From: Syntrophomonadaceae bacterium
Lineage (GTDB): Bacteria > Bacillota > Syntrophomonadia > Syntrophomonadales > Syntrophomonadaceae
Assembly (NCBI GenBank): GCA_012522955.1
Contig: JAAYJK010000017.1
Location: 1 to 64,000, forward strand
DNA: 64,000 bases
Reading direction: 5' to 3'
Of the stretch, positions 7,496 through 22,708 are shown in pieces. How positions within the stretch are numbered: position 1 is the stretch's first letter; every line of letters begins with the position of its first letter. A model generated the notes under the pieces. It saw only the letters and a list, made by a program, of their open reading frames with translations. It did not search any database and was not told the origin of the DNA. The position numbers were made by a program, and so were the translations under genes.

Positions 7496-8812
<1,317 letters not shown>

Positions 8813-8870
8813 CTATAAATTTAAATTGTCTTCTACCCTTAATCCATAATTACTTATTTGAGGATTTTGC

Positions 8871-10436
8871 CTATTTAATCCTTGATTCCCCTGGTTTGCC
8901 TTCGATCAAGCTGCGTCCAGTCATTTCCAGCGGAATCTCCAATCCTAATAGATCGAGGATAGTGGGAGCCACATCCTGTAAGGAACCTCCAGACCTTAAG
9001 GGGAGTCCCCGATGCTCTTCAGATACCAGAATAAAAGGAACCTTATTGGTCGTATGAGCGGTGAGACAAGCCCCGGTAAGAGAGCAGATCATATCCTCAC
9101 AATTACCATGATCTGCAGTTATAAGCACTATGCCTTCTTTTTGCAATACCCGCTCCACCACTTTCTGCATACAAATATCCACTGTATGCACGGCTTTGAT
9201 AGCAGCTTCCATATTGCCGGTATGACCAATCATATCCGGGTTGGCATAGTTGAGAATAATTAAATCATAATAATCCCGGTCTATCTCCTGTATCACCCGG
9301 TCGGTCACTTCTTGGGCACTCATTTCCGGTTTTAAATCGTAGGTTTCTACCGGGGGAGATGGAATAAGAATGCGCTCCTCCCCTGGATTAGGCTGTTCAA
9401 CTCCGCCATTGAAGAAAAAGGTTACATGGGCGTATTTCTCCGTTTCTGCAATCCGTAGCTGTTTCATATTATGCTGGGCTATCCATTCTCCCAAGGTATT
9501 ATCCAAACTCTGGGGCGCAAAAGCCATGGGGGTGTTCAGGGTTATATCATACTGTGTCATGCACACGAAATGGGGAGCAGGCCATATTTCCCGTGGAAAA
9601 TACTCAAAATCTTCATCCACCAGAGCATGGCTTATTTCCCGAGCCCGATCGGCCCGGAAATTAAAAAATATAATGCTGTCCCCTTCCTTTATCCTGCCTC
9701 GGGAAGATCCCTGTTCATCTAAAATAACTACCGGCTCTACGAATTCATCGCTGATTTCAGCCTCATAGCTCTGCTGAATAGCGTCCAATGGATCCAGAGC
9801 CAGATGGCCTTGGCCCATAACCATGGCCTGATAAGCTCTATGCACCCGTTTCCATCGTTTATCCCGGTCCATAGCATAAAATCGACCCATGACCGTGGCA
9901 ATCTTGCCGGTTCCCAATTCCTGCATGCGCTCTTGCAATCTAGCCACGTATTTAATGCCGCTATGGGGATCAGTATCTCGTCCATCTAAAAAAGCATGCA
10001 CATAAACCTCATCTACACCCTGAGTCTGGCAAAGCTTCAGCAAGGCATAAATATGTTCCATATGGCTATGCACACCGCCATCCGATACCAAACCCATAAG
10101 ATGTATGGCTCCTGCCCTTGATCTAGCCTCTTCAGCCGCAGCTAGGAAAGCAGGGTTGGTATAAAAGGAGCCATCTTCAATAGCATTATTTATTCTAGTA
10201 ATTTCCTGATATACAATGCGTCCAGCTCCCATATTAAGATGCCCCACTTCCGAATTCCCCATCTGCCCCCAGGGCAGACCTACATATTTGCCGGAAGTAT
10301 TCAAACAAGTGTCCGGATAGCTATCTTGAAGCCGGTAAAAATTGTTGGGTTGGGCCAGAGCTACCGCATTACGGGCACATTTTTCTCCTTCCCCCCAGCC
10401 GTCCAAAATCATTAAAACCAGAGATTTTTTATACAT
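8871..10436 (-). CDS. gpmI: 2,3-bisphosphoglycerate-independent phosphoglycerate mutase
   Basis: This Mn2+-dependent cytoplasmic enzyme converts 3-phosphoglycerate to 2-phosphoglycerate through a phosphoserine intermediate. The N-terminal metal site LMILDGWG, the nucleophile serine in GNSEVGHLNMGAGR, substrate arginines in FNFRADRARE, and the C-terminal metal ligands NYANPDMIGHTG and ITADHGNCED are all present. Two starts compete: a GTG at 10442, and ATG 10436 two codons in. I chose the ATG because it sits at a better distance from the weak GGGTG. Either start overlaps the end of tpiA, so the two genes are translationally coupled. Confidence 0.96.
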   Translation of the reverse strand: MYKKSLVLMILDGWGEGEKCARNAVALAQPNNFYRLQDSYPDTCLNTSGKYVGLPWGQMGNSEVGHLNMGAGRIVYQEITRINNAIEDGSFYTNPAFLAAAEEARSRAGAIHLMGLVSDGGVHSHMEHIYALLKLCQTQGVDEVYVHAFLDGRDTDPHSGIKYVARLQERMQELGTGKIATVMGRFYAMDRDKRWKRVHRAYQAMVMGQGHLALDPLDAIQQSYEAEISDEFVEPVVILDEQGSSRGRIKEGDSIIFFNFRADRAREISHALVDEDFEYFPREIWPAPHFVCMTQYDITLNTPMAFAPQSLDNTLGEWIAQHNMKQLRIAETEKYAHVTFFFNGGVEQPNPGEERILIPSPPVETYDLKPEMSAQEVTDRVIQEIDRDYYDLIILNYANPDMIGHTGNMEAAIKAVHTVDICMQKVVERVLQKEGIVLITADHGNCEDMICSLTGACLTAHTTNKVPFILVSEEHRGLPLRSGGSLQDVAPTILDLLGLEIPLEMTGRSLIEGKPGESRIK

Positions 10437-11190
10437 TTTCACCCAACCTTACTATATTGGCAAAAACTGCTGCATCTAGACTAGCTCCTCCTATCAAGGC
10501 TCCATCTATATCTTGCTGTTGCAGAAATTCTTTAATGTTGTCTTCCTTAACACTGCCCCCATACAAAATCCTGATGGCTGCGGCCAGCTGTGATCCATAA
10601 AGCTGCTTTAACTGCTCCCGAATAAAACGGCACATATCCTGGGCATCCTGCCCGCTGGCATTAACCCCGGTTCCTATGGCCCAAACTGGTTCATAGGCCA
10701 AGACCAGATTATCCATCTGCTGAGAGCTTAGACCCTGTAAAGCCTGTTCCAACTGCTGGGCCACTACCTTTTCGGCCTTTCCATCCTTTCTCTGTTCCAG
10801 GGTTTCTCCGATACATAGGATAGGGATTAATTTCTCCTGGCAGGCCTTGTGCATCTTCTTGTTTATAAGGGCATCTCTTTCCCCCATAACTTGACGTCTT
10901 TCAGAATGGCCAATTATCACATAAGTGCAACCGGTATCCAGCAACATAGACGCTGAAATCTCCCCGGTATAAGCACCATTATCCCCCCAAAAAACATCCT
11001 GTCCCCCTAATTTTATCCCTGCTGCTGCCAGTAAGGGCTGCAATTCATAAAGCATGGTATAGGGAGGACAAATCAACACCTCACTAGTACCCGTATCTGG
11101 CAGCAGAGATGGTACTACCTGAGCAAAAGCCAAAGCTTCCCTTCTCGATTTATTCATTTTCCAATTGCCAGCTATCAGAGTAACCCTCAT
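10429..11190 (-). CDS. tpiA: Triosephosphate isomerase
   Basis: The enzyme interconverts dihydroxyacetone phosphate and glyceraldehyde 3-phosphate as a TIM barrel. Catalytic residues are visible as Lys in GNWKMNK, His in IIGHSERR and Glu in AYEPVWAIGTG; the phosphate-binding loop is LYGGSV. The frame is open back to 11235, but the extra 15 residues are unlike the family, while ATG 11190 gives the standard MRVTLIAGNWKMNK start with GAAAGGGGTGG just upstream. That leaves 25 bases after pgk and yields 253 residues, the normal size. Confidence 0.97.
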   Translation of the reverse strand: MRVTLIAGNWKMNKSRREALAFAQVVPSLLPDTGTSEVLICPPYTMLYELQPLLAAAGIKLGGQDVFWGDNGAYTGEISASMLLDTGCTYVIIGHSERRQVMGERDALINKKMHKACQEKLIPILCIGETLEQRKDGKAEKVVAQQLEQALQGLSSQQMDNLVLAYEPVWAIGTGVNASGQDAQDMCRFIREQLKQLYGSQLAAAIRILYGGSVKEDNIKEFLQQQDIDGALIGGASLDAAVFANIVRLGENV

Positions 11191-11215
11191 CCAACCACCC
11201 CTTTCTGAGCCATTG

Positions 11216-12391
11216 TTAGTGCTCACAAACGGCAACTCCAGGCAATTCTATACCTTCAAGGAATTCCAGAGTTGCTCCTCCTCCGGTGGAGATATGAGTT
11301 ATTCCCTCTTCCAATCCCAGGTCATGTACGATGACACTGGTATCTCCTCCGCCAATAACGGTGGTAGCGGAAGAAGCAGCCAGAGCCTGAGTAATGGCCC
11401 GGGTGCCCTGGGCAAATTGATCATACTCAAAAACTCCCAAAGGCCCATTCCACACTACGGTTCTGGCCTCATTGATAAGTTCCAGGTAAGCCTCTATGGT
11501 TTTGGGCCCAATATCCAAAACCATTTTATCTGAGCCCACTCCATCCACATCAACTATTTCAGCCCTGGCATCGGCTGAAATAGCATCAGCTACTACTACA
11601 TCCTGGGGCAATACCAGGCGCACCTTTTTGTCTTGGGCTGCCTGAATTATACTCCGAGCTTCATCCAGCAAATTATCTTCACAAAGTGATTTTCCCACAT
11701 TTTTGTTCTGAGCCTTTAAGAAGGTATTGGCCATGCCCCCGCCAATTAAAATGATGTCCATTTTGTCCAAGAGGTTACGGATCAGACCTAGTTTATCTGC
11801 TACCTTGGCTCCACCCAGAATGGCCATCCTGGGTTTTTCCCCCTCTCCCAGTGCCTTTCTCAACATAGCTACTTCATTTTCCATCAGGAATCCAGCGTAA
11901 GTTGGCAGGAAATCAGCTATCCCGCTAGTGGAGGAATGAGCCCGATGGGCAGTGCCAAAAGCATCATTGATAAAAATCTCACCCAAAGCAGCCAGCTGAC
12001 GGGAGAAACCCGGGTCATTTTTCTCTTCCCCTTCATAATACCTGACGTTTTCCAGTAGCAAGACCTGACCCTCCTGCAGCTTCTGAACTGCCTGCTGCAC
12101 CTCTTCTCCTATACAGTCATCCATCTTAATAACTGGCAAACTCAGTAGCGAAGAAAGATGAGCAGCCACTTTGTCCAGGCTGTACTTGCCATTTTTCTTC
12201 CCTCCGGGCCGGCCCAGGTGACTCATCAGTATCAGTTTCCCCCTATGTGCCAGGACATATTTAATAGTCGGCAATGCTGCTGTGATCTTAGTATCATCCA
12301 ATATGTTATTTTCTTTGTCAGTGGGTACATTAAAATCTACCCGCATTAAGACTCGTTTGCCTTTAAGCTCCAGGTCACGCAAACTTTTCAT
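11216..12391 (-). CDS. pgk: Phosphoglycerate kinase
   Basis: It makes ATP and 3-phosphoglycerate from 1,3-bisphosphoglycerate, or runs in reverse for gluconeogenesis. The 391 residues start with the substrate-binding RVLMRVDFNVP, continue with HLGRPGG and LLENVRYYEGEEKND, and have the nucleotide-binding AILGGAKVADKLG, WNGPLGVFE and GGGDTS motifs in order. The gene lies 26 bases downstream of gap in the cggR operon. Length is typical of the bacterial monofunctional enzyme and there is no fusion to TpiA. Confidence 0.98.
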   Translation of the reverse strand: MKSLRDLELKGKRVLMRVDFNVPTDKENNILDDTKITAALPTIKYVLAHRGKLILMSHLGRPGGKKNGKYSLDKVAAHLSSLLSLPVIKMDDCIGEEVQQAVQKLQEGQVLLLENVRYYEGEEKNDPGFSRQLAALGEIFINDAFGTAHRAHSSTSGIADFLPTYAGFLMENEVAMLRKALGEGEKPRMAILGGAKVADKLGLIRNLLDKMDIILIGGGMANTFLKAQNKNVGKSLCEDNLLDEARSIIQAAQDKKVRLVLPQDVVVADAISADARAEIVDVDGVGSDKMVLDIGPKTIEAYLELINEARTVVWNGPLGVFEYDQFAQGTRAITQALAASSATTVIGGGDTSVIVHDLGLEEGITHISTGGGATLEFLEGIELPGVAVCEH

Positions 12392-12417
12392 CGCCTACAC
12401 CTCCCTGCATAACGATA

Positions 12418-13419
12418 TCATTTTAATCCGCCTATATATATCACTGCATCCACTACCCGCATGGAATATCCCCATTCATTATCATACCAGGCTATGATCT
12501 TAGCCATCTTCTCTCCCATGGTCATGGTCAACATCCCATCTACTACCGAGGAGTGGTTTTCACCCCTGTAATCACTTGACACCAGCTCTTCCTCAGTGTA
12601 TTTTAGAATACCCTTTAAATCATTCTGGCTGGCGGCTTTAAAGGCATCATTAATCTCTTTAACTGAGGCCGATTTACTCAATTCTACCGTCAAGTCTACC
12701 AGGGATACGGTAGGAGTAGGAACTCTTATGGCCATACCATCGAATTTACCCGCCAATTCCGGTATGACCAGGCCCAGAGCGCTGGCAGCACCAGTGGTGG
12801 TAGGAACAATAGATAATGCTGCAGCCCGGGCTCTTCTCAAATCATCGTGGGCCAAATCAAGTATACGCTGGTCATTGGTATAAGAATGTACAGTAGTCAT
12901 CATGCCTCTTTCAATGCCAAACTGATCCAAAAGTACTTTGGCCACGGGAGCCAAGCAGTTGGTAGTACAGGAAGCATTGGAAATCACCTGATATTCAGGC
13001 CGGCACTGTAGGTGGTTGACTCCCATCACCATTGTAAAATCAATCTTCTTGCCCGGTGCGGTTATCAATACTTTTCGGGCTCCCGCCTGCAAATGTTTGG
13101 ACGCCTTGTCCTTGCTGCGAAAAGCACCAGTGCCTTCAATCACCAGATCGACTCCCAGTTCTTTCCAAGGCAATTGCTCCGGATTCTTCTCGGACAAATA
13201 TCTGATCTTTTTCCCTTTGATTGTCAGGCTATCCTGCTCAGCAATTACTTCACCCGGGTAGCGCCCGTAAACAGAATCATATTTAAACAGATGAGCTGAG
13301 GTCTGGGCATCGCCCAAATCGTTTATAGCAACAATTTCCAGGTCATCTCTTTCCAGTGCAATTCTCCCTACCAGTCGCCCAATACGTCCAAAGCCGTTAA
13401 TAGCTGCTTTAATCTTCAT
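12418..13419 (-). CDS. gap: Glyceraldehyde-3-phosphate dehydrogenase, type I
   Basis: This enzyme oxidises glyceraldehyde 3-phosphate to 1,3-bisphosphoglycerate. The Rossmann motif INGFGRIGR opens the protein, Asp in AINDLGD indicates NAD+ and not NADP+ preference, and the catalytic cysteine lies in SNASCTTNCLAP. The C-terminal WYDNEWGYSMR is intact. The frame reaches a GTG at 13428, but the ribosome binding site AAAGGGTGG covers it; ATG 13419 is the correct start and overlaps the cggR stop as ATGA, giving tight coupling of repressor and first enzyme. The product is 333 residues. Confidence 0.97.
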   Translation of the reverse strand: MKIKAAINGFGRIGRLVGRIALERDDLEIVAINDLGDAQTSAHLFKYDSVYGRYPGEVIAEQDSLTIKGKKIRYLSEKNPEQLPWKELGVDLVIEGTGAFRSKDKASKHLQAGARKVLITAPGKKIDFTMVMGVNHLQCRPEYQVISNASCTTNCLAPVAKVLLDQFGIERGMMTTVHSYTNDQRILDLAHDDLRRARAAALSIVPTTTGAASALGLVIPELAGKFDGMAIRVPTPTVSLVDLTVELSKSASVKEINDAFKAASQNDLKGILKYTEEELVSSDYRGENHSSVVDGMLTMTMGEKMAKIIAWYDNEWGYSMRVVDAVIYIGGLK

Positions 13420-14456
13420 TTTAACCACCCTTTCTCAATCGATTGTATAATTTCTCTGGCCGCTCCCTCATCGGTAATTAATACATCCAGCTGGCCATGC
13501 CCTAACACTGCTTTAATTGCCTCGGCCTTTCTTTTGCCTCCGGCTACTGCCACTACGATCTCAATATGACTCAAATCATTCATCTCCAGTCCTATGCCCG
13601 GAACTTCATATACTATATTGCCCTTTTCATCAAAATAATATCTAAATGCCTCGGCAACAGCATTCTTTTCCTGCAACATGTCAATAATGGTCGGCGACAA
13701 GCCTCGTCTGGCAGCCATTTCCATAGCCGGGCCTATACCATGAATTAATATACTGCTGGTTTTAATAATCTGCAGTATATCTTTTACATGGACATCCTTT
13801 TTCAATATTTCTGCGGTGTTTTCTTCAATATTATCCGGAATATGCAAGAGCCTGTATTGAGCTCCCAGAGTATCGGCAATATTGGCGGCTATGGTTCCCG
13901 CTTGTTGTTCCAATCCTTCTCCCAGCCCACCCCGGGCTGGAACTACCAGCACATCATTCATTCCAGTGACCTTCTTCATAGCTGCGGCCATTTCTGCCAA
14001 GGTAGTGCCCCCCGTAACCGCCAGTACACTATCCGGTTTTAGCATTTTCCTCAAATAGCCGGCAGCCGCACGACCCAGGTCTTTTTGGCTAAGATAGTCT
14101 TCACTGGAGTCTCCCGGCACAATAAGGACCTCTTTAACATGAAAACTTTGTTTTATTTTTTCGGCTAGAGGCTGGATACTTAAGAGAGAGGGTACAATAT
14201 CACTCATTTCCTGAAGCAATTTACGACCGGACGGACTGAGGTTGATACCAGCAGAGGTGGAAAGGGCTGCTCCCCGGGCTTTGAGTTTATCAATTTCACT
14301 TCTAACCGTTCGTTCAGACAAATTCAGCTCTTTGCACAGTTGACGCCTGCCTACCGGTTCATGATAGTAGATTTGCCTTAATATTTTATATCTGGTATCG
14401 ATTAATTCTATAGCCTCAGGAGCCAAACGCTCCAGTACCAGTAATATCCTATCCAT
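13416..14456 (-). CDS. cggR: Central glycolytic genes regulator CggR (SorC family)
   Basis: CggR represses the gap operon in Firmicutes and is released by fructose-1,6-bisphosphate. Residues about 20-80 form a winged helix-turn-helix (VGRRQLCKELNLSERTVRSEIDKL). The remaining part is the SorC-type sugar-phosphate binding domain, with GGTTLAEMA near 165 and GIGPAMEMAARRG near 245. The 346-residue length matches the family. It is the first gene of cggR-gap-pgk-tpiA-gpmI-eno, and a candidate operator lies between its start and a TATAAT-like box upstream. Effector identity is inferred from the family and position. Confidence 0.93.
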   Translation of the reverse strand: MDRILLVLERLAPEAIELIDTRYKILRQIYYHEPVGRRQLCKELNLSERTVRSEIDKLKARGAALSTSAGINLSPSGRKLLQEMSDIVPSLLSIQPLAEKIKQSFHVKEVLIVPGDSSEDYLSQKDLGRAAAGYLRKMLKPDSVLAVTGGTTLAEMAAAMKKVTGMNDVLVVPARGGLGEGLEQQAGTIAANIADTLGAQYRLLHIPDNIEENTAEILKKDVHVKDILQIIKTSSILIHGIGPAMEMAARRGLSPTIIDMLQEKNAVAEAFRYYFDEKGNIVYEVPGIGLEMNDLSHIEIVVAVAGGKRKAEAIKAVLGHGQLDVLITDEGAAREIIQSIEKGWLK

Positions 14457-14494
14457 CTTTCCAACCTCGATCCCTATTCCATTGCTGAGTAGAT

Positions 14495-14533
14495 GTGGGG
14501 CAATCTTCTACTTAAGGGGCATTTCAGCCCCAC
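14495..14533 (-). promoter_or_regulatory. Candidate CggR operator
   Basis: A long inverted repeat GTGGGGC ... GCCCCAC spans 14495-14533 and encloses a second, shorter palindrome GGGGC-TGAAAT-GCCCC (minus-strand reading, 14532-14517). It lies in the 160-base leader of cggR, downstream of a TATAAT at 14571-14566 whose -35 is weak. In Bacillus the CggR site also lies between promoter and cggR, with repeated CGGGAC/TGTC half-sites; the sequence here differs, so the assignment rests on position and symmetry. Confidence 0.45.
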
Positions 14534-14617
14534 TATCAACAAAAAAATACCCTAAACATATATATATTATATCATATACCCAGCTAATTAATGTATCGAT
14601 GGCTTAATAAATAATAA

Positions 14618-16333
14618 TCACCTTTTGGCTGCCATTGAATATGCCTCTATTATATCGCTGCGGCTGACGATCCCTATTAATTTCCTGTGATCATCGGGGT
14701 CTACCACCGGTAAGCGCCCTACATCACCTTGTGCCATTTTCTCCATAACTACTGCTATGGTATCCTGGGGATACACATAGATTAAATGAGGGTTTACTAT
14801 GTCTTTTAAGCAGAGTTTTTCACCTTGCTTGATAGCACTCCATACCTGTTCATAAGTTACCAATCCGACCAGGCCACTTTCGGCCATTACCGGAAACCCG
14901 GTATAGGATCGCTGCCGCATTATTTCCCGGGCCGCTTTCAAAGTGCAGCCAATATCTAAGGTCTCTACCTCAGTAGTCATCACCGACTCTACCCACATCT
15001 GCCCCATTCGGTCAATACTTTCTCCTTTGCGAAGATTCTTCCCCTCCCGGGCCAATTTCATGGTGTAGATGGATTCCGGACATATACCCCGGGCTACCAG
15101 GGCACTAATAACACATACCAGCATTAATGGTAAGACCACCTTATAATCACCGGTCATTTCAAATATTATTATTATACCGGTAATGGGAGCCTGGGCTATC
15201 CCGGCAAATACTCCGGCCATACCCACCAGAGCATAGGCGCCGGGAAGAGCAGTCATAGCCGGAAATAATTGATTTAGCAGATAGCCATAACTTCCTCCCA
15301 GCATGGATCCCATATACAAACTGGGGGCAAAAACCCCTCCAAGTCCACCCGAACCCAAGGTCAGTGAAGTGGCTACTATTTTGGCTACCATCAAAATCAA
15401 CACCAGCAACCAGGATAAGTCATTACTTAGAATCCGTTCTACACTTTCGTATCCTACTCCAAAAATTTGAGGATAATACAGCCCCATCAGTCCGACCAAT
15501 AGGCCACCCAAGGCTGGTTTAAAATAGTTGGGAACAGGTATTTGTTTAAACAGGTCTTCTGAAGCATATAGAGCCTTAATAAAGATCACTGCCACGGTCC
15601 CGGCCAGTACTCCTAGCACCAAATAAAACAATAGCTCCCCGGGAGATACCAGCTCATAGGGTGAGACCATAAAAGAAGGGTAATCTCCCCAGTATACCCG
15701 GCTAATTATAGCTGAAATGAGGGAACTTATTACTATAAGAATAAAGTTGTTGCTGCTGAATTTGCCCAAAATAACCTCCTGGGCAAAAAGCACCCCGCCA
15801 ATAGGAGCATTAAAGGTGGCAGAAATTCCTCCTGCCGCTCCACAGGCCAGCAAGGTTCTTAAAATATCGGGGGAGACTTTAAATCTTTGCCCAATAACTG
15901 ATCCTACTGTTGAACCAATATGTACAATAGGTCCATGCAGGCCAGCTGAACCACCTGAACCAATAGTAATAGCAGAAGCCAAGGTCTTGGCCAACACCGT
16001 CCAGGGCCTAATAATACCATCTTGGTCCACTGCCACCATTACTTCCGATACTCCATATCCACCCTTTTCCCGAGCCAGAAAATAGACTATGCCACCCACC
16101 AGCAATCCTCCCAGGGATGGAAGCAGAATGAGATGGTATTCGCCTAAAAGGGATTGTAGTGCCCTTTGGTTTTGGACAAAAAAGAGCCCGTGGATAAAGT
16201 CGATCAGAACTTTAAAAGCAATGGAGGCCAGGCCGGTTCCCAGTCCAATCAGAGCAGCGATAAATAGAAGCCGCGAGGAATCAACCCAGTAATTATTACT
16301 TCGACGACTTGGATCTTTGCTGTCATAATTCAT
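14618..16333 (-). CDS. CLC-family anion channel/transporter with C-terminal CBS pair
   Basis: A 571-residue membrane protein. Residues about 20-420 are the CLC anion-permeation domain with selectivity motifs GSGGSAGLHGP (126-135), FNAPIGGVLFAQEV (174-187) and GSGGLGGVFAPSL (328-340). Two CBS domains occupy about 447-505 and 512-567 and probably sense nucleotides. The glutamates needed for proton-coupled exchange in E. coli ClcA are absent: the gating position carries His133 and the internal proton position Val187. I therefore infer a passive or atypical anion conductor. It stands alone between cggR and rpoN, with repeat-rich DNA upstream and no shared operon evident. Confidence 0.9.
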   Translation of the reverse strand: MNYDSKDPSRRSNNYWVDSSRLLFIAALIGLGTGLASIAFKVLIDFIHGLFFVQNQRALQSLLGEYHLILLPSLGGLLVGGIVYFLAREKGGYGVSEVMVAVDQDGIIRPWTVLAKTLASAITIGSGGSAGLHGPIVHIGSTVGSVIGQRFKVSPDILRTLLACGAAGGISATFNAPIGGVLFAQEVILGKFSSNNFILIVISSLISAIISRVYWGDYPSFMVSPYELVSPGELLFYLVLGVLAGTVAVIFIKALYASEDLFKQIPVPNYFKPALGGLLVGLMGLYYPQIFGVGYESVERILSNDLSWLLVLILMVAKIVATSLTLGSGGLGGVFAPSLYMGSMLGGSYGYLLNQLFPAMTALPGAYALVGMAGVFAGIAQAPITGIIIIFEMTGDYKVVLPLMLVCVISALVARGICPESIYTMKLAREGKNLRKGESIDRMGQMWVESVMTTEVETLDIGCTLKAAREIMRQRSYTGFPVMAESGLVGLVTYEQVWSAIKQGEKLCLKDIVNPHLIYVYPQDTIAVVMEKMAQGDVGRLPVVDPDDHRKLIGIVSRSDIIEAYSMAAKR

Positions 16334-16360
16334 TAGCTAGTCATTCCTCAATGCTATATA

Positions 16361-16510
16361 GGAGCGGTCTTTGACCGCCAGCCGGAGTATATATCGGTGT
16401 TTTACAGGGTTCCTGCGAGGATTGTAGGGGCGGTCTTTGACCGCCAGCCTGTGTTTGCAAACGATATTCCGCCGGATGAACGGGCGGGCGACCGCAGGTC
16501 GCCCCCTACA
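16361..16510. repeat. Cluster of three palindromic GC-rich repeats upstream of the CLC gene
   Basis: Three hairpin units lie in the 208-base gap between rpoN and the CLC gene: GCGGTC-TTT-GACCGC at 16364-16378, GGCGGTC-TTT-GACCGCC at 16429-16445 (preceded by TGTAGGG), and GGGCGACC-GCA-GGTCGCCC at 16486-16504 (followed by CCTACAG). They are the same family as the palindromes at 1.3, 45.3 and 46.9 kb, seen here in the opposite orientation. They may also stop or stabilise the rpoN transcript. Confidence 0.8.
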
Positions 16511-16541
16511 GACCGCCCTTCCGGAGTTTTTTCAATACCTC

Positions 16542-17924
16542 TTAGTACCTCTTTCGGGCCATGGTAGAAGGAATCCCCATTTCTTGGCGATATTTGGCTA
16601 CTGTGCGGCGGGAAATCCTGATTCCTTTTTGCTTCAACAGTTTGGAAATAGCTTCATCACTTAAGGGTTTGCTAGTGTCTTCATTGTTGATTATCTCCTC
16701 CAGCATATGTTTTATGCTCTTGGAAGATACTTTACTGCTCCCATATGAATCTACTCCTGTGCTGAAGAAGTATTTTAGTTCAAATAAGCCCTGGGGAGTT
16801 TGGATGTATTTATTGGTAGTAGCTCGGCTCACTGTTGATTCATGCACATCAACTGCTTCCGCTACTTTGCGCAGGTTGAGGGGTTTCATGTATTCTACCC
16901 CTTTGTCCAGAAACTCGGTTTGAATATCTACTATGCTTCGAGATACCTTATACAAAGTCATGCGTCTTTGTTCAATGCTGCGAATCAGCCAGATAGCTGA
17001 ACCCATTTTATCTTCCAGATATTTTTTGGCGTCCTGGGAGAAATTATTATTTTGATGTAATATCCGTTTGTAAACATTATTTACAATCAAGCGAGGAAAG
17101 TTCAGATCATTTACTATTACTACATATTCTCCCTCTACCTTTTCCACAAATACATCCGGCATGATATACTTGACATCATCATAACTACTGTATTGCAGTC
17201 CCGGCTTGGGATCCAGGGTTCTTATCAGATCGCATACTTCTTGTACTTGGTTGATGGGAATGGACAGGGATTGGGCTATCTTGTTCAGTTTAGCCCGGGC
17301 TAGGTCTTCCATGTGCTGCTTAATAATGCAAGTAGCTATGGAATCCTCCTTATTGTAATATCTGAGCTGCAGCAAAAGGCATTCGGGTAGATCCCTTGCT
17401 CCTACTCCATGGGGATGAAAGGATTGTATCAGATTAAGCGCTTTTTCAACTTTTTCCAAGGGCACTTTTAGATTGGTTGCTACTTCATTAAGATCTACGC
17501 AAAGATAACCAGTTCTATCGATACTGCCGATCAGGTAATTACCGATGACCTGCTCTTGTTCCCCCTGGCAGCTCAGATGAAGCTGAAACTCCAAATGCTC
17601 ATAGAGGCTGGGTCTTTTAGTCAGAAAATTTTCCAGGGAAGGCTTTTCTTCCCGGTCGGTATAACTATATTCTATATCTCTATCATTGTAGTATTCTACA
17701 ATATCTTCTATCTTATTATCGTTTTCTTCCTGCTCTACTTTGTCAGCTTCAAGGCTTTCTTCAGGTTCTTTCAATTCCAAAAAGGGATTCTCCTGAAGCT
17801 CCTGCTCGATATACTCACTCAATTCAATGGTAGACATCTGCAGGATAGCAATAGCCTGACGTAATTCAGGAGTCATCATCAGTTTCTGCTGTTGTTCCAA
17901 GAAAACATCCTGTGTCAGCCGCAT
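16542..17924 (-). CDS. rpoN: RNA polymerase sigma-54 factor
   Basis: Sigma-54 directs RNA polymerase to -24/-12 promoters and needs an AAA+ activator to melt DNA. Of 460 residues, about 1-50 form the glutamine- and leucine-rich activator-interaction region (QQQKLMMTPELRQAIAILQMS), followed by an acidic linker (about 60-95). Then come the core-binding domain, a helix-turn-helix near 365-385 (VAEAVDVHESTVSRATTNKY), and the RpoN box SRRTVAKYRQEMGIP close to the C-terminus. In Bacillus the orthologue is sigL. No bEBP activator and no clear -24/-12 site was found in the window, so its targets lie elsewhere. Confidence 0.97.
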   Translation of the reverse strand: MRLTQDVFLEQQQKLMMTPELRQAIAILQMSTIELSEYIEQELQENPFLELKEPEESLEADKVEQEENDNKIEDIVEYYNDRDIEYSYTDREEKPSLENFLTKRPSLYEHLEFQLHLSCQGEQEQVIGNYLIGSIDRTGYLCVDLNEVATNLKVPLEKVEKALNLIQSFHPHGVGARDLPECLLLQLRYYNKEDSIATCIIKQHMEDLARAKLNKIAQSLSIPINQVQEVCDLIRTLDPKPGLQYSSYDDVKYIMPDVFVEKVEGEYVVIVNDLNFPRLIVNNVYKRILHQNNNFSQDAKKYLEDKMGSAIWLIRSIEQRRMTLYKVSRSIVDIQTEFLDKGVEYMKPLNLRKVAEAVDVHESTVSRATTNKYIQTPQGLFELKYFFSTGVDSYGSSKVSSKSIKHMLEEIINNEDTSKPLSDEAISKLLKQKGIRISRRTVAKYRQEMGIPSTMARKRY

Positions 17925-18009
17925 CTTTGTCCCTCCGCTTCAAAGACTATCTATTTCCTTCATTCGTCATAAAGTTACAAGTTCCTGCTATATTAATCTT
18001 TGTTGCCAA

Positions 18010-18948
18010 TCACTGCTCATTCCCAGCATCTGCTTCAATCAAGGTTTCCAGTTTCCTCATTCTGTAGGCAGTACCCGATTTGCTCAAGGAGGGACCCAGC
18101 ATAGACCCTAGTTCTTTCAAGGAATAGTCCGGGTGTTCAACTCTTAACAAGGCCAGCTCCCGTAAGTTGATGGGGATGCTTTCCCAACCATTCTTTTCTA
18201 CATAATGTTGAATTAATTCTACCTGCCGCAAAGATGCATCTATAGTTTTAGCCAGGTTAGCGGTTTCACAATTGACCTGCCGATTAACGTTATTACGAAC
18301 CGACTTTAGTATCCTAACATTTTCGAAGTCCAACAAAGCTTTATTGGCTCCTACCAAACGCAAGAAATCAACTATCTTTTCACCCTCTTTAAGATAAATA
18401 ACCAGGCTGTTCTTTCTCTCTACTATCCCCGCCGGAAGGTCAAATAATCCCATTAGTTTTTTTATGTCCGCCGCCATCTTGCTGGTATTACAGATAATTT
18501 CCAGATGATAGCTACCCTCGGGACGGTTGATAAAACCCCGACTAAGAAATAGCCCCCGCAGGTAAGCTCTTTTACAGCAGGCTTTTCCCAGCTGGGACCA
18601 GTTGATTCGCCTGCTTATGTCCGGGGATTGATACAAGATAATTTCAGACCTGAGTTTACTAAGATCCCGACCCAGTTCCGTGTTAACCACATAAAAGCGG
18701 TTTTTCCGAAAAAACCTTCTGTTGGCAACATTCACCTTGGATTGCAATCCATAAACATTTTTAATCATTTTAAAGGCTTTTCTGGCCGTTGCTGCATTAT
18801 CCAGGGTGAGGCTTAGCAGGTATTTTGAGCTTTCTCCACTCAGCTTGCCGCTGCTGGCAAACAATGCTGAGAGCTCAGCTTTCTGGCAACATTCTTTTTC
18901 ACCCATTTCTCGAGCTAACTCGTTGCGAACATCATTGGAAAAACTCAT
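18010..18948 (-). CDS. whiA: DNA-binding protein WhiA
   Basis: WhiA is a conserved Gram-positive regulator linked to sporulation in Streptomyces and to cell division and chromosome segregation in Bacillus. The 312-residue protein has the N-terminal region with two LAGLIDADG-like lobes (KAYLRGLFLSRGFINRPEGSYHLEI near 125-150 lies in the second) and a C-terminal helix-turn-helix, LKELGSMLGPSLSKSGTAYRMRKLE. It lies 21 bases after yvcK in the conserved rapZ-yvcK-whiA cluster. In many Firmicutes an HPr-like gene (crh) follows; here rpoN follows instead. Confidence 0.95.
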   Translation of the reverse strand: MSFSNDVRNELAREMGEKECCQKAELSALFASSGKLSGESSKYLLSLTLDNAATARKAFKMIKNVYGLQSKVNVANRRFFRKNRFYVVNTELGRDLSKLRSEIILYQSPDISRRINWSQLGKACCKRAYLRGLFLSRGFINRPEGSYHLEIICNTSKMAADIKKLMGLFDLPAGIVERKNSLVIYLKEGEKIVDFLRLVGANKALLDFENVRILKSVRNNVNRQVNCETANLAKTIDASLRQVELIQHYVEKNGWESIPINLRELALLRVEHPDYSLKELGSMLGPSLSKSGTAYRMRKLETLIEADAGNEQ

Positions 18949-18969
18949 AGCGTCTTCTCCCTGGCTTTA

Positions 18970-19923
18970 TCAATCTAAGAGGGTAAGAATAGTGCGAGCC
19001 AGTTTATCTGAATCATGCCAGGCTACATCATCATTGGAAACTAAATCCTCTTTTATTATATTAATTCCCATAGCCTGGATGTCTTCATATGCCGGCGATA
19101 CCGGAATTGCTCGCTCCTGACGATAGCGCCTAAGCCTATGCTCATCAATTACCCCGGAGTTGATAATCACAAAATCCACTAGTTGCCGATTCAAATGTCG
19201 TTTTATGGACTGCAAATGGTCAGCTGCAGTAAAACCATCGGTTTCACCTTGTTCGGTCATGATGTTGCTAACATAAATCACGGGGGCACTAGCCTGGGTA
19301 ATAGATTCGGCTACCCCCTTGACCAGCAAATTAGGAATTATGCTGGTATAAAGGCTGCCCGGCCCAAGTACAATGGCATCAGCTTCCTGAATGGCCTTTA
19401 AGGTTTCCGGTACTGGCAGACATTGGTCCGGGATCAAGGAGATTCTCTGTATCTTACCTTCATGGTTCCTGATCCTGGTTTCACCTATTACGGTACCACC
19501 GTTCTCCATGGTGGCAGCCAGCACTACCGGTTCCAAGGTGGCAGGCAACACCACTCCCCGCACTGCCAGCACCTTACTGACTTCCTGAATAGCCGATATA
19601 AAATCCCCCGCAATCTCACTCATGGCTACCAAGAGAAGATTGCCCAGGCTGTGTCCTTGTATTCCTCCCCCAGCTTGGAAACGGTGCTGAAAAACCTTAT
19701 TCATCAAGGTTTCAGTTTCAGCCAGAGCCACCAAACAATTGCGAATATCTCCCGGAGGTAAAACTCCCATTTCTGCCCGCAATCGTCCGGAACTGCCTCC
19801 GTCATCACTGACCGTTACTATGGCTGTGAGCCGGGAAGTATATTTTTTTAATCCTTTTAATAAAACCGCCAGGCCAGTACCTCCACCTATTACTACAATA
19901 CCCAGTTCTCTATTCGTTGCCAT
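18970..19923 (-). CDS. yvcK: YvcK/CofD-like gluconeogenesis factor
   Basis: YvcK proteins bind UDP-sugars and are needed for normal cell shape and growth on gluconeogenic carbon sources. The 317-residue sequence begins with GIVVIGGGTGLAVLLKGLK, followed by TVSDDGGSSGRLR, the nucleotide-binding elements of the CofD-like fold. DADAIVLGPGSLYTSIIPNLL-like signature residues are present around 180-200. The ATG at 19923 abuts the rapZ stop at 19924, indicating coupling. It probably links central carbon status to the cell envelope, by analogy with Bacillus. Confidence 0.94.
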   Translation of the reverse strand: MATNRELGIVVIGGGTGLAVLLKGLKKYTSRLTAIVTVSDDGGSSGRLRAEMGVLPPGDIRNCLVALAETETLMNKVFQHRFQAGGGIQGHSLGNLLLVAMSEIAGDFISAIQEVSKVLAVRGVVLPATLEPVVLAATMENGGTVIGETRIRNHEGKIQRISLIPDQCLPVPETLKAIQEADAIVLGPGSLYTSIIPNLLVKGVAESITQASAPVIYVSNIMTEQGETDGFTAADHLQSIKRHLNRQLVDFVIINSGVIDEHRLRRYRQERAIPVSPAYEDIQAMGINIIKEDLVSNDDVAWHDSDKLARTILTLLD

Positions 19924-20811
19924 TTACTCCTCCACTTTAAACCTGGCATAATCTCTATGTTTAACTAATACATTATATCCCATTTCATTTAATTCTTGAG
20001 ATATATGTTCAGCCAGTACTACTGAGCGATGCTGACCACCGGTACATCCGATGGACAGGGCCAGATTGGTTTTTCCCTCTTTGATATAGTGGGGAATTAA
20101 ATACTTTAATAGACTCAGGAAGCGACGATTGAACGCCTGAGTAACGGTAGATTTCATAACATAATCTCTTACCGGCGGATCCATACCGGTCATAGTTTTC
20201 ATCACCGGATCATAAAAGGGATTAGGTAAAAATCTCACATCTATTACTAGATCTGAATCCAAGGGTATTCCCATTTTATATCCGAAGGACACTACATTAA
20301 TGGAAAACCCGTTAAGAGACTGTTTCCCATAGAGGCTAATTAACTTCTCCCTTAACTCCCGGGAAGAAGTATTGGAAGTATCAATCACCACATTAGCCTG
20401 ACCACGAAGTTCTTCCAGCATGGTTTTTTCAATCTGTATAGCTTCCAATAGTCTCCAGCGTCCGGATAAGGGGTGCTTCCTCCGGGATTCCTTGAAGCGC
20501 CTTACCAATACCTCATCTGAGGCTTCCAAAAACAATATTTGATACTGTAAATGGCCCTGCTCCAGTTCTTTCAAGGCTCGAGATAAATCAAGGAAAAAAT
20601 CCCCACCCCGAGCATCCATAACCAGGGCTACCTTATCAATTTTACCCTCTGATTGTATACCCAGTTCTACAAATTTGGTCAAGAGTGCAGGCGGGAGATT
20701 ATCGACACAGTAATAACCAATATCTTCCAGGCAATTGACGGTCTGGGTTTTTCCTGCTCCTGATAAGCCAGTAATTATGAGTATGCGCAATCCTTCGCTT
20801 TTTTCGACCAC
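19924..20811 (-). CDS. rapZ: RNase adapter protein RapZ (YvcJ), nucleotide-binding
   Basis: RapZ/YvcJ is a P-loop protein: in E. coli it guides RNase E to the GlmZ small RNA; in Bacillus YvcJ affects competence and binds GTP. The Walker A GLSGAGKT lies at residues 15-22, and the C-terminal conserved GCTGGQHRSVVLAEHI is intact in the 295-residue product. The GTG start at 20811 overlaps the end of the PHP gene by 37 bases. Its only ribosome-binding candidate is a run of eight G residues nine bases upstream, which is also part of the PHP coding sequence. Confidence 0.93.
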   Translation of the reverse strand: MVEKSEGLRILIITGLSGAGKTQTVNCLEDIGYYCVDNLPPALLTKFVELGIQSEGKIDKVALVMDARGGDFFLDLSRALKELEQGHLQYQILFLEASDEVLVRRFKESRRKHPLSGRWRLLEAIQIEKTMLEELRGQANVVIDTSNTSSRELREKLISLYGKQSLNGFSINVVSFGYKMGIPLDSDLVIDVRFLPNPFYDPVMKTMTGMDPPVRDYVMKSTVTQAFNRRFLSLLKYLIPHYIKEGKTNLALSIGCTGGQHRSVVLAEHISQELNEMGYNVLVKHRDYARFKVEE

Positions 20812-21563
20812 TTTTTATATCCCCCCCCGGACCGGCGATTAGCTATTGTATTTCTATTAATCCCCAGTTTGTCTGCTATCCAACTTCCATAATCTAGGTT
20901 GCCAACCGATTCCTGAAAATGTGCATCACTATTAATTATGAATTTTACACCAACCCGGTTAGCTTCAATTATATCAGAAATTGGTGGATATTTATGAGCA
21001 CAATTTATTTCAAATAATACCTGCCTGATTTTACAAGCCCAGGCTACCTCTTCTATATGGACTTTAAAAAATAAACCAGGATGAGATAAAATATCAATCT
21101 GAGGATAACGGTTTAGAGCCGCTACGATGGCCCTGGTATTTGCCTTCACCGCCTCTTTTTGAAATCTTGGACCTAGGCGGCGCAGGGAATTACCAGCCAT
21201 AATGCTCCATCCGTCTTTTATAGAGGTAGGCCAGGTATAGGGATGCAAGCCGGCTATTAGAATATCCAGCTCTTCCATAATCTCCTCATCCAGGTCGAGT
21301 GTGCCATCCAAATCTCTGATGTTGGCCTCAGCTCCTAAGAGGATGTGAATATTAGGGTATTTTCTTTGAACCTGGTAAATTTCTTCTTTAATATCAAGAT
21401 AGCTCTCTTGCTTCTTTACCCCTATAACAGCGGCCAGAGGGCCATGATCAGTAATGGCTACTTCCAGCAGTCCTTTACTGAATGCGGCATGAACTATATT
21501 TTCTATGCCCTGCCGACCGTCACTGTACCGGGAATGGGTATGATAATCTCCGAAGAAATTCAT
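20775..21563 (-). CDS. PHP-domain metal-dependent phosphoesterase
   Basis: A 262-residue PHP protein with the four characteristic metal motifs: DYHTHSRYSDG at 6-16, TDHGP near 38, an HP dyad in ILSHPGLFF, and SDAHF near the C-terminus. These resemble the YcdX/histidinol-phosphatase-like branch, trinuclear phosphatases whose substrate is usually unknown. The gene overlaps rapZ, so it belongs to the rapZ-yvcK-whiA unit. The ATG at 21563 follows TAGGAGGGG. Histidinol phosphatase is possible, but there are no histidine genes nearby. Confidence 0.85.
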   Translation of the reverse strand: MNFFGDYHTHSRYSDGRQGIENIVHAAFSKGLLEVAITDHGPLAAVIGVKKQESYLDIKEEIYQVQRKYPNIHILLGAEANIRDLDGTLDLDEEIMEELDILIAGLHPYTWPTSIKDGWSIMAGNSLRRLGPRFQKEAVKANTRAIVAALNRYPQIDILSHPGLFFKVHIEEVAWACKIRQVLFEINCAHKYPPISDIIEANRVGVKFIINSDAHFQESVGNLDYGSWIADKLGINRNTIANRRSGGGYKKWSKKAKDCAYS

Positions 21564-21670
21564 AAATACCCCTCCTACTCGATTTTGTTATTTATAATTT
21601 GTCCATTATTCCTCCTTCCTAATACTATTCTCTGACTTTAATCCGCCTAGTCCCTTCCATTGCTTTAAGC

Positions 21671-22708
21671 CTATTGAGCCAATTGCTCCTTCAGCAAATC
21701 TATCATTTTGACCGGGGTAGGATTAATTCCGTATTCCAAAGCCAAATAAGCACTGGCATAGTCACCCACATATATTAACGAAAAGACCCGGGTTAGATAG
21801 GATTCTCCCTGGCTAAAAACTTCAATGATGCTTTTTACCTTGTCCTTGATAATAGTCTTGCTGATCTCAATGCGTTTTTGTATTCTCTCATTATCCTGTT
21901 TATCCCTTAAAATAATGTATACTTGTCGCTGCAACAAATCTGCTGGGGCTTCGAAGCCCACTATTTCATTATGGTTCAGTTCAGGAAAAATACTGTAGTA
22001 GGCTGGGCTTTTAGCATTTTCATTAATCTGGGCTTTCCAGCGCTGAGCCGCCACTTCCGATACTCCTGTAGTTCCCCATATTACTGGAATGCTGTCTCGG
22101 CATTTTCCAGCAATCACTCGCGCCTGGTTTACCGGCACATCAACTATGGGTTTCAGAGATTCCCGCAGTTCTCTTAATACTGTAGCAGTTTCTCGTATTT
22201 CCTCTTCCACCCCTGGTATTATGCCCATTTCACCCAGTAACAAGGCCTGAGGAGCGAAGAGCCAACCCGCTGCGGCTCGGGGAACAAATCCAGACGGGAG
22301 CTGAATCAGTCCTTGTCCATCCCGGCGAGCATATTCGCTTAGTTTTCCCCCGCTGCTCAAAATGATTATTCTGGCTCCACGATCAACCGCCTGTTCGTAG
22401 GCGGCCAGAGTCTCTTCTGTATTGCCCGAATAGCTAACCGCCAATACCAGCGTATCAGGACCGACAAAAGCCGGTAAATGGTAATCCCGGTTAACAACTA
22501 TTGGCAGCCTGGCCTTTTTAGCCGCATAGTTACGGAGGATGTCCCCTCCAATAGCTGAACCCCCTAAGCCAGTTACCACTACATTGCGGTAATCCTCCCT
22601 GTAGCGCTGGATAAAGTCAAATTCCAGTCCCAGGCTGTTATGGAACTGATCCGGCAACTCGTATAGGTATCCCATCATTTTTTCAGCACTCATATCACCA
22701 GCCATCAT
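21671..22708 (-). CDS. Bifunctional phosphoglucose/phosphomannose isomerase (SIS domain)
   Basis: This enzyme type interconverts fructose 6-phosphate with glucose 6-phosphate and mannose 6-phosphate. The 345-residue protein has two SIS sugar-isomerase lobes; GLGGSAIGGDILRNY (about 47-61) and SYSGNTEETL (about 92-101) form the phosphate-binding site, and ELNHNEIVGFE near 240 carries the conserved His and Glu. It resembles the family of thermophile and archaeal PGI/PMI enzymes and not classical Pgi. It is likely the hexose isomerase completing glycolysis/gluconeogenesis. ATG 22708, or the adjacent ATG, is preceded by GGAGGGAATCA. Confidence 0.88.
   Translation of the reverse strand: MMAGDMSAEKMMGYLYELPDQFHNSLGLEFDFIQRYREDYRNVVVTGLGGSAIGGDILRNYAAKKARLPIVVNRDYHLPAFVGPDTLVLAVSYSGNTEETLAAYEQAVDRGARIIILSSGGKLSEYARRDGQGLIQLPSGFVPRAAAGWLFAPQALLLGEMGIIPGVEEEIRETATVLRELRESLKPIVDVPVNQARVIAGKCRDSIPVIWGTTGVSEVAAQRWKAQINENAKSPAYYSIFPELNHNEIVGFEAPADLLQRQVYIILRDKQDNERIQKRIEISKTIIKDKVKSIIEVFSQGESYLTRVFSLIYVGDYASAYLALEYGINPTPVKMIDLLKEQLAQ

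Follow-up and report, generated by a model that had tools for sequence, protein, structure and literature searches.

The solved structures closest to the protein described here, as found by HMMER alignment, are those of ClcA (CLC-ec1), a Cl-/H+ antiporter from E. coli. When E148, the external gating glutamate of ClcA, is replaced by a nonprotonatable residue, proton transport is abolished and Cl- movement persists (excerpt of PMC3519907), and the E148Q protein shows no proton pumping (excerpt of PMC7253180). The mutant E203A and several CLC homologues pump protons with no titratable residue at the E203 position, and CmCLC, the Phillips 2012 homologue and CLC-F are given as carrying a non-titratable residue at this internal position, Glu_in (both from the same excerpt of PMC7253180). 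Valine is described at the E203 position in all known CLC channels (excerpt of PMC3519907). In CLC-F the external glutamate, Glu_ex, is E118 (excerpt of PMC12035849), and vertebrate CLC-K, which is devoid of the gate glutamate, is called inert to H+ transfer (excerpt of PMC6019066).

The switching between exchangers and channels in CLC proteins is a long-standing question, vertebrate CLC-K being the best known natural case without the gate glutamate. The present work deals with a CLC-CBS protein encoded in a window of bacterial DNA (the whole stretch analysed, 64,000 nucleotides long) in which the gate position is occupied by a histidine. A search of open-licence papers found none on a histidine at the CLC gate.

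The CLC-CBS gene of the window

According to the listing of open reading frames and the translation, the gene runs from ATG to stop and encodes 571 amino acids (Table 1). The sequence-only reading had given its limits exactly and had left out that it lies on the minus strand. The Pfam profile Voltage_CLC (PF00654) matches residues 75-415 with 342.9 bits, the cut-off being 24.8, and two CBS domains were found by Pfam as well. This is the only CLC of the whole genome above the Pfam cut-off; the second place, with 18.3 bits, is below it. An AlphaFold model was built with 14 CLC relatives, a single-sequence model (pLDDT 37) having been discarded. Most of the transmembrane part of the model has pLDDT values of 80-98 and the CBS part lies below 50; the model matches E. 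coli ClcA (1ots_A) with a Z of 53.5 and 3.6 A over 432 aligned residues, that is, with the CLC transmembrane fold.

The HMMER alignment with ClcA chains places His133 at E148, Val187 at E203 (mutated to Val, E203V, in the chain aligned, 3ejz) and position 138 at Q153. The motif GLHGP thus stands where CLC Cl-/H+ antiporters have GxEGP, and no carboxylate is present at the gate, as in channels of the CLC-K kind. In these respects the sequence-only reading has held: it had assigned His133 and Val187 to the gating and internal proton glutamates, and it had considered the fold and the CBS pair intact, which agrees with the Pfam domains and with the match of the model to 1ots_A.

The gene belongs to a long run of genes on the same strand (8871-21563 of the window), kept across the genus, which we take to be PHP, rapZ, yvcK, whiA, rpoN, CLC, cggR, gapA, pgk, tpiA and gpmI-like genes; it is located immediately upstream of a gene resembling a glycolysis regulator (presumably cggR-like). 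G013-G016 retain the order from the PHP/rapZ-like genes via rpoN, CLC and cggR to gpmI. The CLC gene of G033 also lies between these neighbours; the 19 kb read in G044 contain none of the ten.

Table 1. Location of the CLC-CBS gene, its main residues and its neighbours in the window
Feature	Coordinates	Strand	Evidence
CLC-CBS protein gene	14618..16333	-	ORF, Pfam Voltage_CLC and two CBS
Helix C-D anion loop, residues 90-98 KGGYGVSEV (genus relatives AKGHGVPEV); Tyr93 at the ClcA Ser107 position	16040..16066	-	alignments
Helix F motif, residues 125-141 GSGGSAGLHGPIVHIGS; Leu132; His133 (15935-15937) = Glu148 of ClcA; His138 (15920-15922)	15911..15961	-	alignments
Residues 174-190 FNAPIGGVLFAQEVILG; Glu186 = E202 and Val187 (15773-15775) = E203 of ClcA	15764..15814	-	alignments
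Helix N anion loop, residues 327-337 GSGGLGGVFAP; Leu331 in place of Ser	15323..15355	-	alignments
Tyr423, equivalent of ClcA Tyr445 (central site), kept	15065..15067	-	alignment
CBS pair, residues 449-566	14636..14989	-	Pfam CBS (two stretches) and genus alignment
Upstream neighbour, presumably rpoN-like	16542..17924	-	ORF; kept in G013-G016 and G033
Downstream neighbour, presumably cggR-like, then gapA, pgk, tpiA and gpmI-like genes	13416..14456	-	ORF; order kept

Gate residues in the genus and in the subfamily

A sample of 54 genomes of the family contains five of the genus (a partial gene of G018 was excluded from the comparison). The sister species G013, separately assembled and with a CLC 83% identical, shares GYGVSEV and GLHGPIVHIGS, the whole helix F stretch of Table 1 being identical; GLHGP is therefore not a sequencing slip. 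The other three species, G014, G015 and G016 (72-73% identical), have GHGVPEV and GREGPIVQISS with the same gene order, and G033 and G044 (61 and 56% identical) have GHGVPEV and GREGPIVQIGS. As the gene order is the same in all five genomes of the genus, the His proteins are orthologs and not second copies. In a tree from which the three pore loops had been removed, support is 100 for the His pair as well as for the five-genome genus; from this support and the conserved gene order it follows that the gate changed recently and in the ortholog itself. In the tree of 83 rows the window protein nests inside the prokaryotic CBS-CLC subfamily characterised by GHGVPEV.

A pattern for CLC helix F was run on 63 genomes of the class and 299 genomes of the phylum. 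The latter gave 84 matched places, of which 15 failed the CLC filter and four (three with Gln and one with a stop, one recurring non-CLC sequence) were dropped by eye. Glu is present in 62 of the 65 accepted motifs, Val in two and His in one, the window itself, in a count where variants other than those with Gly-Pro and Gln or His at 138, which the pattern demands, are underestimated. Within the subfamily, 47 members besides the His pair, mostly phylum draws, have Glu (40), Val (3), Ile (2), Thr (1) or Gln (1). The set of 83 rows, that is, an alignment of 84 minus L167 (without the membrane half), has Glu in 56 and another residue in 27, with His in two, both in this genus; its sampling is partly targeted, including two classes picked because they held losses. 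Loss of the gate Glu is recurrent in the subfamily. His is unusual there, as the sequence-only reading had supposed; the alignment with many prokaryotic CLCs that it proposed, run within the own phylum, revealed no large clade of antiporters with the same His.

Val187 is a different case. Within the subfamily, all 81 others carry a hydrophobic residue at the E203 position (Val 48, Ile 27, Ala 4, Leu 2) and Glu at the E202 position. Val187 is thus inherited and represents no event in this protein. It differs from the internal glutamate of CLC Cl-/H+ antiporters, but this residue is not obligatory (excerpt of PMC7253180), so that, the subfamily being hydrophobic there, Val187 says little on coupling and the diagnosis has to be made from the gate residue alone.

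Several other proteins came to light among the relatives. The CBS pair is retained in most scanned lineages lacking Glu_ex. In a divergent CLC-CBS clade (L132, L152, L154 and L156) the gate residue is Gln, the Ser107 position is occupied by Tyr, and Ser or Ala takes the place of the Pro of GxxGP or lies close to it (KQGS, KQAS); gate Glu loss and a Tyr at the central serine coincide here for a second time. A further clade (L084, L138, L165, L166, L168, L169 and L171-L176) has GRIGP for GREGP and Glu at 138; its only member scanned with Pfam, L168, is short (429 aa) and consists of CLC without CBS. The CLC copy L081 (G161:C64:41050-42417), whose matched region is interrupted by two TAG codons, is possibly a pseudogene; it was retained in the tree, as was the short L076. 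CLC-CBS proteins with a C-terminal TrkA_C domain were also found (L075, L131, L134, L135). All six long members scanned in one clade of the tree (L130, L158, L160, L161, L162 and L163; CLC-CBS-CBS, 759-796 aa) carry a C-terminal HATPase_c domain of histidine-kinase type, and their gate motif is still GREGP or GSEGP; such a fusion of CLC with a kinase-like ATPase domain would be a candidate anion sensor. Finally, CLC-like genes appear in 81 plasmid records.

The stem of the His pair has 36 changed sites and that of the three canonical species has 10. The ten neighbour genes summed give 56 against 40 (Fisher p 0.024 for the CLC ratio against them); the ratio 36:10 alone is modest, as single neighbours can match it (cggR 12:3, rpoN 3:1). 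The share of changed columns in CLC, 6.3%, is the highest of eleven genes, followed by cggR with 3.5%. Eight of the 36 changes, that of His133 and seven more, fall in the 26 of 568 columns that make up the three anion-binding loops, where 1.6 were expected (p 8e-5, with loops defined post hoc); the strict 15 loop columns hold four of the 36 (p 0.011). The rates, with purifying selection having acted since, fit functional change, followed by constraint, better than decay.

Possible functions of the altered anion pathway

The window protein may be an uncoupled or weakly coupled anion conductor without obligatory proton exchange, either channel-like or a leaky uniporter, and we assign to this reading, made by analogy, a probability of about 0.5. 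By its place in the gene order the protein is orthologous to an ordinary prokaryotic CBS-CLC, its anion pathway having been rebuilt on the branch to the two species. The carboxylate usual at 133 swings into the external anion site and carries the proton; with this group gone, anions could be conducted without obligatory proton exchange, as they are by CLC-K with Val there. The channel-like reading is preferred because the gate carboxylate is absent, as in the ClcA mutants and CLC-K. The sequence-only reading had proposed an anion channel that had lost both glutamates: the channel-like behaviour is plausible by the CLC-K analogy, indeed likely, and the gate loss is a recent event, but the valine at the E203 position is ancestral and, being subfamily-wide, gives no support to it.

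The sequences themselves show the residue changes, their recent date, the orthology, the clustering in the loops and the later purifying selection; the loss of coupling, the identity and direction of the anion, any pH effect of His133 and His138 and any regulation by the CBS domains are inferred. All five members of the genus have TYEQ in CBS1, where some relatives have Asp, and SRSD or TRSD in CBS2 (SRSD in the window protein); nucleotide control through the CBS domains, another proposal of the sequence-only reading, might occur. Two features count against an uncoupled conductor: the chemistry of histidine, which is titratable, could leave room for coupling, and the central serine position, with Tyr for Ser/His, could make the inner pathway narrower instead of opening it.

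The first of these features leads to the main rival explanation, unlikely in our opinion, which extends the His-based pH gating of the sequence-only reading. His133 (with His138) would itself be the gate and its protonation would switch the conductance; the protein would then be either an anion channel gated by pH or an exchanger that is still coupled but whose pH range has shifted. Both species have the pair His133/His138. Of the 27 rows that lack Glu_ex, 23 have His, Glu or Tyr at 138, as do 2 of the 56 that possess it (Fisher 2.5e-14, kinship ignored), as if an ionisable group were kept near the gate. The combinations at 133/138 are H/H in the window pair; V/H in L144-L145; V/H in L066, L129, L149 and L150, grouped with L151 (V/Y); T/E in L073; and V or I/E in L074 and the Ile clade. 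The KQGS group, Q/Q, is the exception. In a test that takes kinship into account, 3.9 of 5 independent pairs agree in direction and none is opposed on average, which is not significant (p 0.125); branch-wise parsimony gives three shared branches for four losses and five gains among 164 (p 5e-5), with the root and reversals doubtful and two class samples selected for losses. The link is therefore suggestive. On the other hand, most of the other lineages that have lost Glu_ex carry Val, Ile or Thr at 133, so that a titratable residue is not generally kept there; an imidazole is unable to mimic an anion in the external site; and among eukaryotic CLCs with an intact gate Glu, His at 138 is common as well.

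A wider proposal is tentative and somewhat doubtful: the inner Glu having already been dispensed with in the subfamily, the gate Glu would have been lost about six times, about five of them with His, Glu or Tyr replacing Gln at 138, and these proteins, that of the window among them, might be bacterial CLC anion channels in which gating has passed to an ionisable side chain located five positions beyond the gate residue in helix F.

It is quite improbable that the pore was retuned for another anion through changes in all three anion loops, coupling being secondary. H93Y, P96S, R132L, E133H and S331L all fall in anion-coordinating loops, and the new residues of A90K, K91G, H93Y, R132L, E133H and S331L are seen in none of 30 outgroup members (L081 and L076 excluded). 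Both His species have Leu instead of Arg before His133, Tyr93 at the ClcA Ser107 position, where 69 of the 81 other members have the usual His of the subfamily, and the changes of Gln138 to His and Ser331 to Leu, none of which the sequence-only reading had mentioned. The ClcA Ser107 position sets the preference for nitrate or chloride in plant CLCs. Nevertheless, the surroundings of the gene point to no particular anion: neither an Rfam match nor a riboswitch was found in 8000-22000, and the genes nearby serve glycolysis and housekeeping.

Least probable of all is a transporter losing its function or turned into a non-conducting sensor, for although the stem evolved faster and the dN/dS of the His pair, 0.125, is above the 0.07 of the canonical species, the frame is open with all domains kept, this dN/dS is far below 1 and like that of gpmI (0.117) and tpiA (0.150) for the same pair, and the motifs are identical in two species at a dS of 0.73.

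Comparison with known CLC systems

The window protein resembles ClcA in the fold, the Tyr445 and E202 positions, the GxFxP of helix N and the K131 position. It differs in having His for Glu148, Leu for Arg147, Tyr for Ser107, Val for Glu203 and His for Gln153, and in carrying a CBS pair. The nearest NCBIfam model is PRK01862 (ClcB-like), with 372.8 bits, below its cut-off of 482. The protein shares a non-titratable residue at Glu_in with CmCLC, the Phillips 2012 homologue and CLC-F; these, however, are coupled exchangers that keep Glu_ex, whereas the window protein, with His133, has lost it. With vertebrate CLC-K it has in common the absence of the gate Glu, the Val at the E203 position and the cytosolic CBS pair (in part from the excerpt of PMC6019066), but CLC-K has Val and not His at the gate and needs barttin; the likeness is not taken as a sign of specific kinship.

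The protein itself belongs to the prokaryotic CBS-CLC subfamily of the GHGVPEV type, with 38-83% identity to 19 aligned members, a hydrophobic residue at E203, the E202 glutamate and the CBS pair; the His gate and the set of Tyr, Leu and His in the pore are found only in the species of the window and its sister. The switch, if there was one, took place within a single bacterial genus, and GREGP and GLHGP orthologs about 72% identical can be compared directly: the candidates are the 36 stem changes, of which eight belong to the anion loops, and other branches of the subfamily, where the gate Glu was lost repeatedly, provide replicates.
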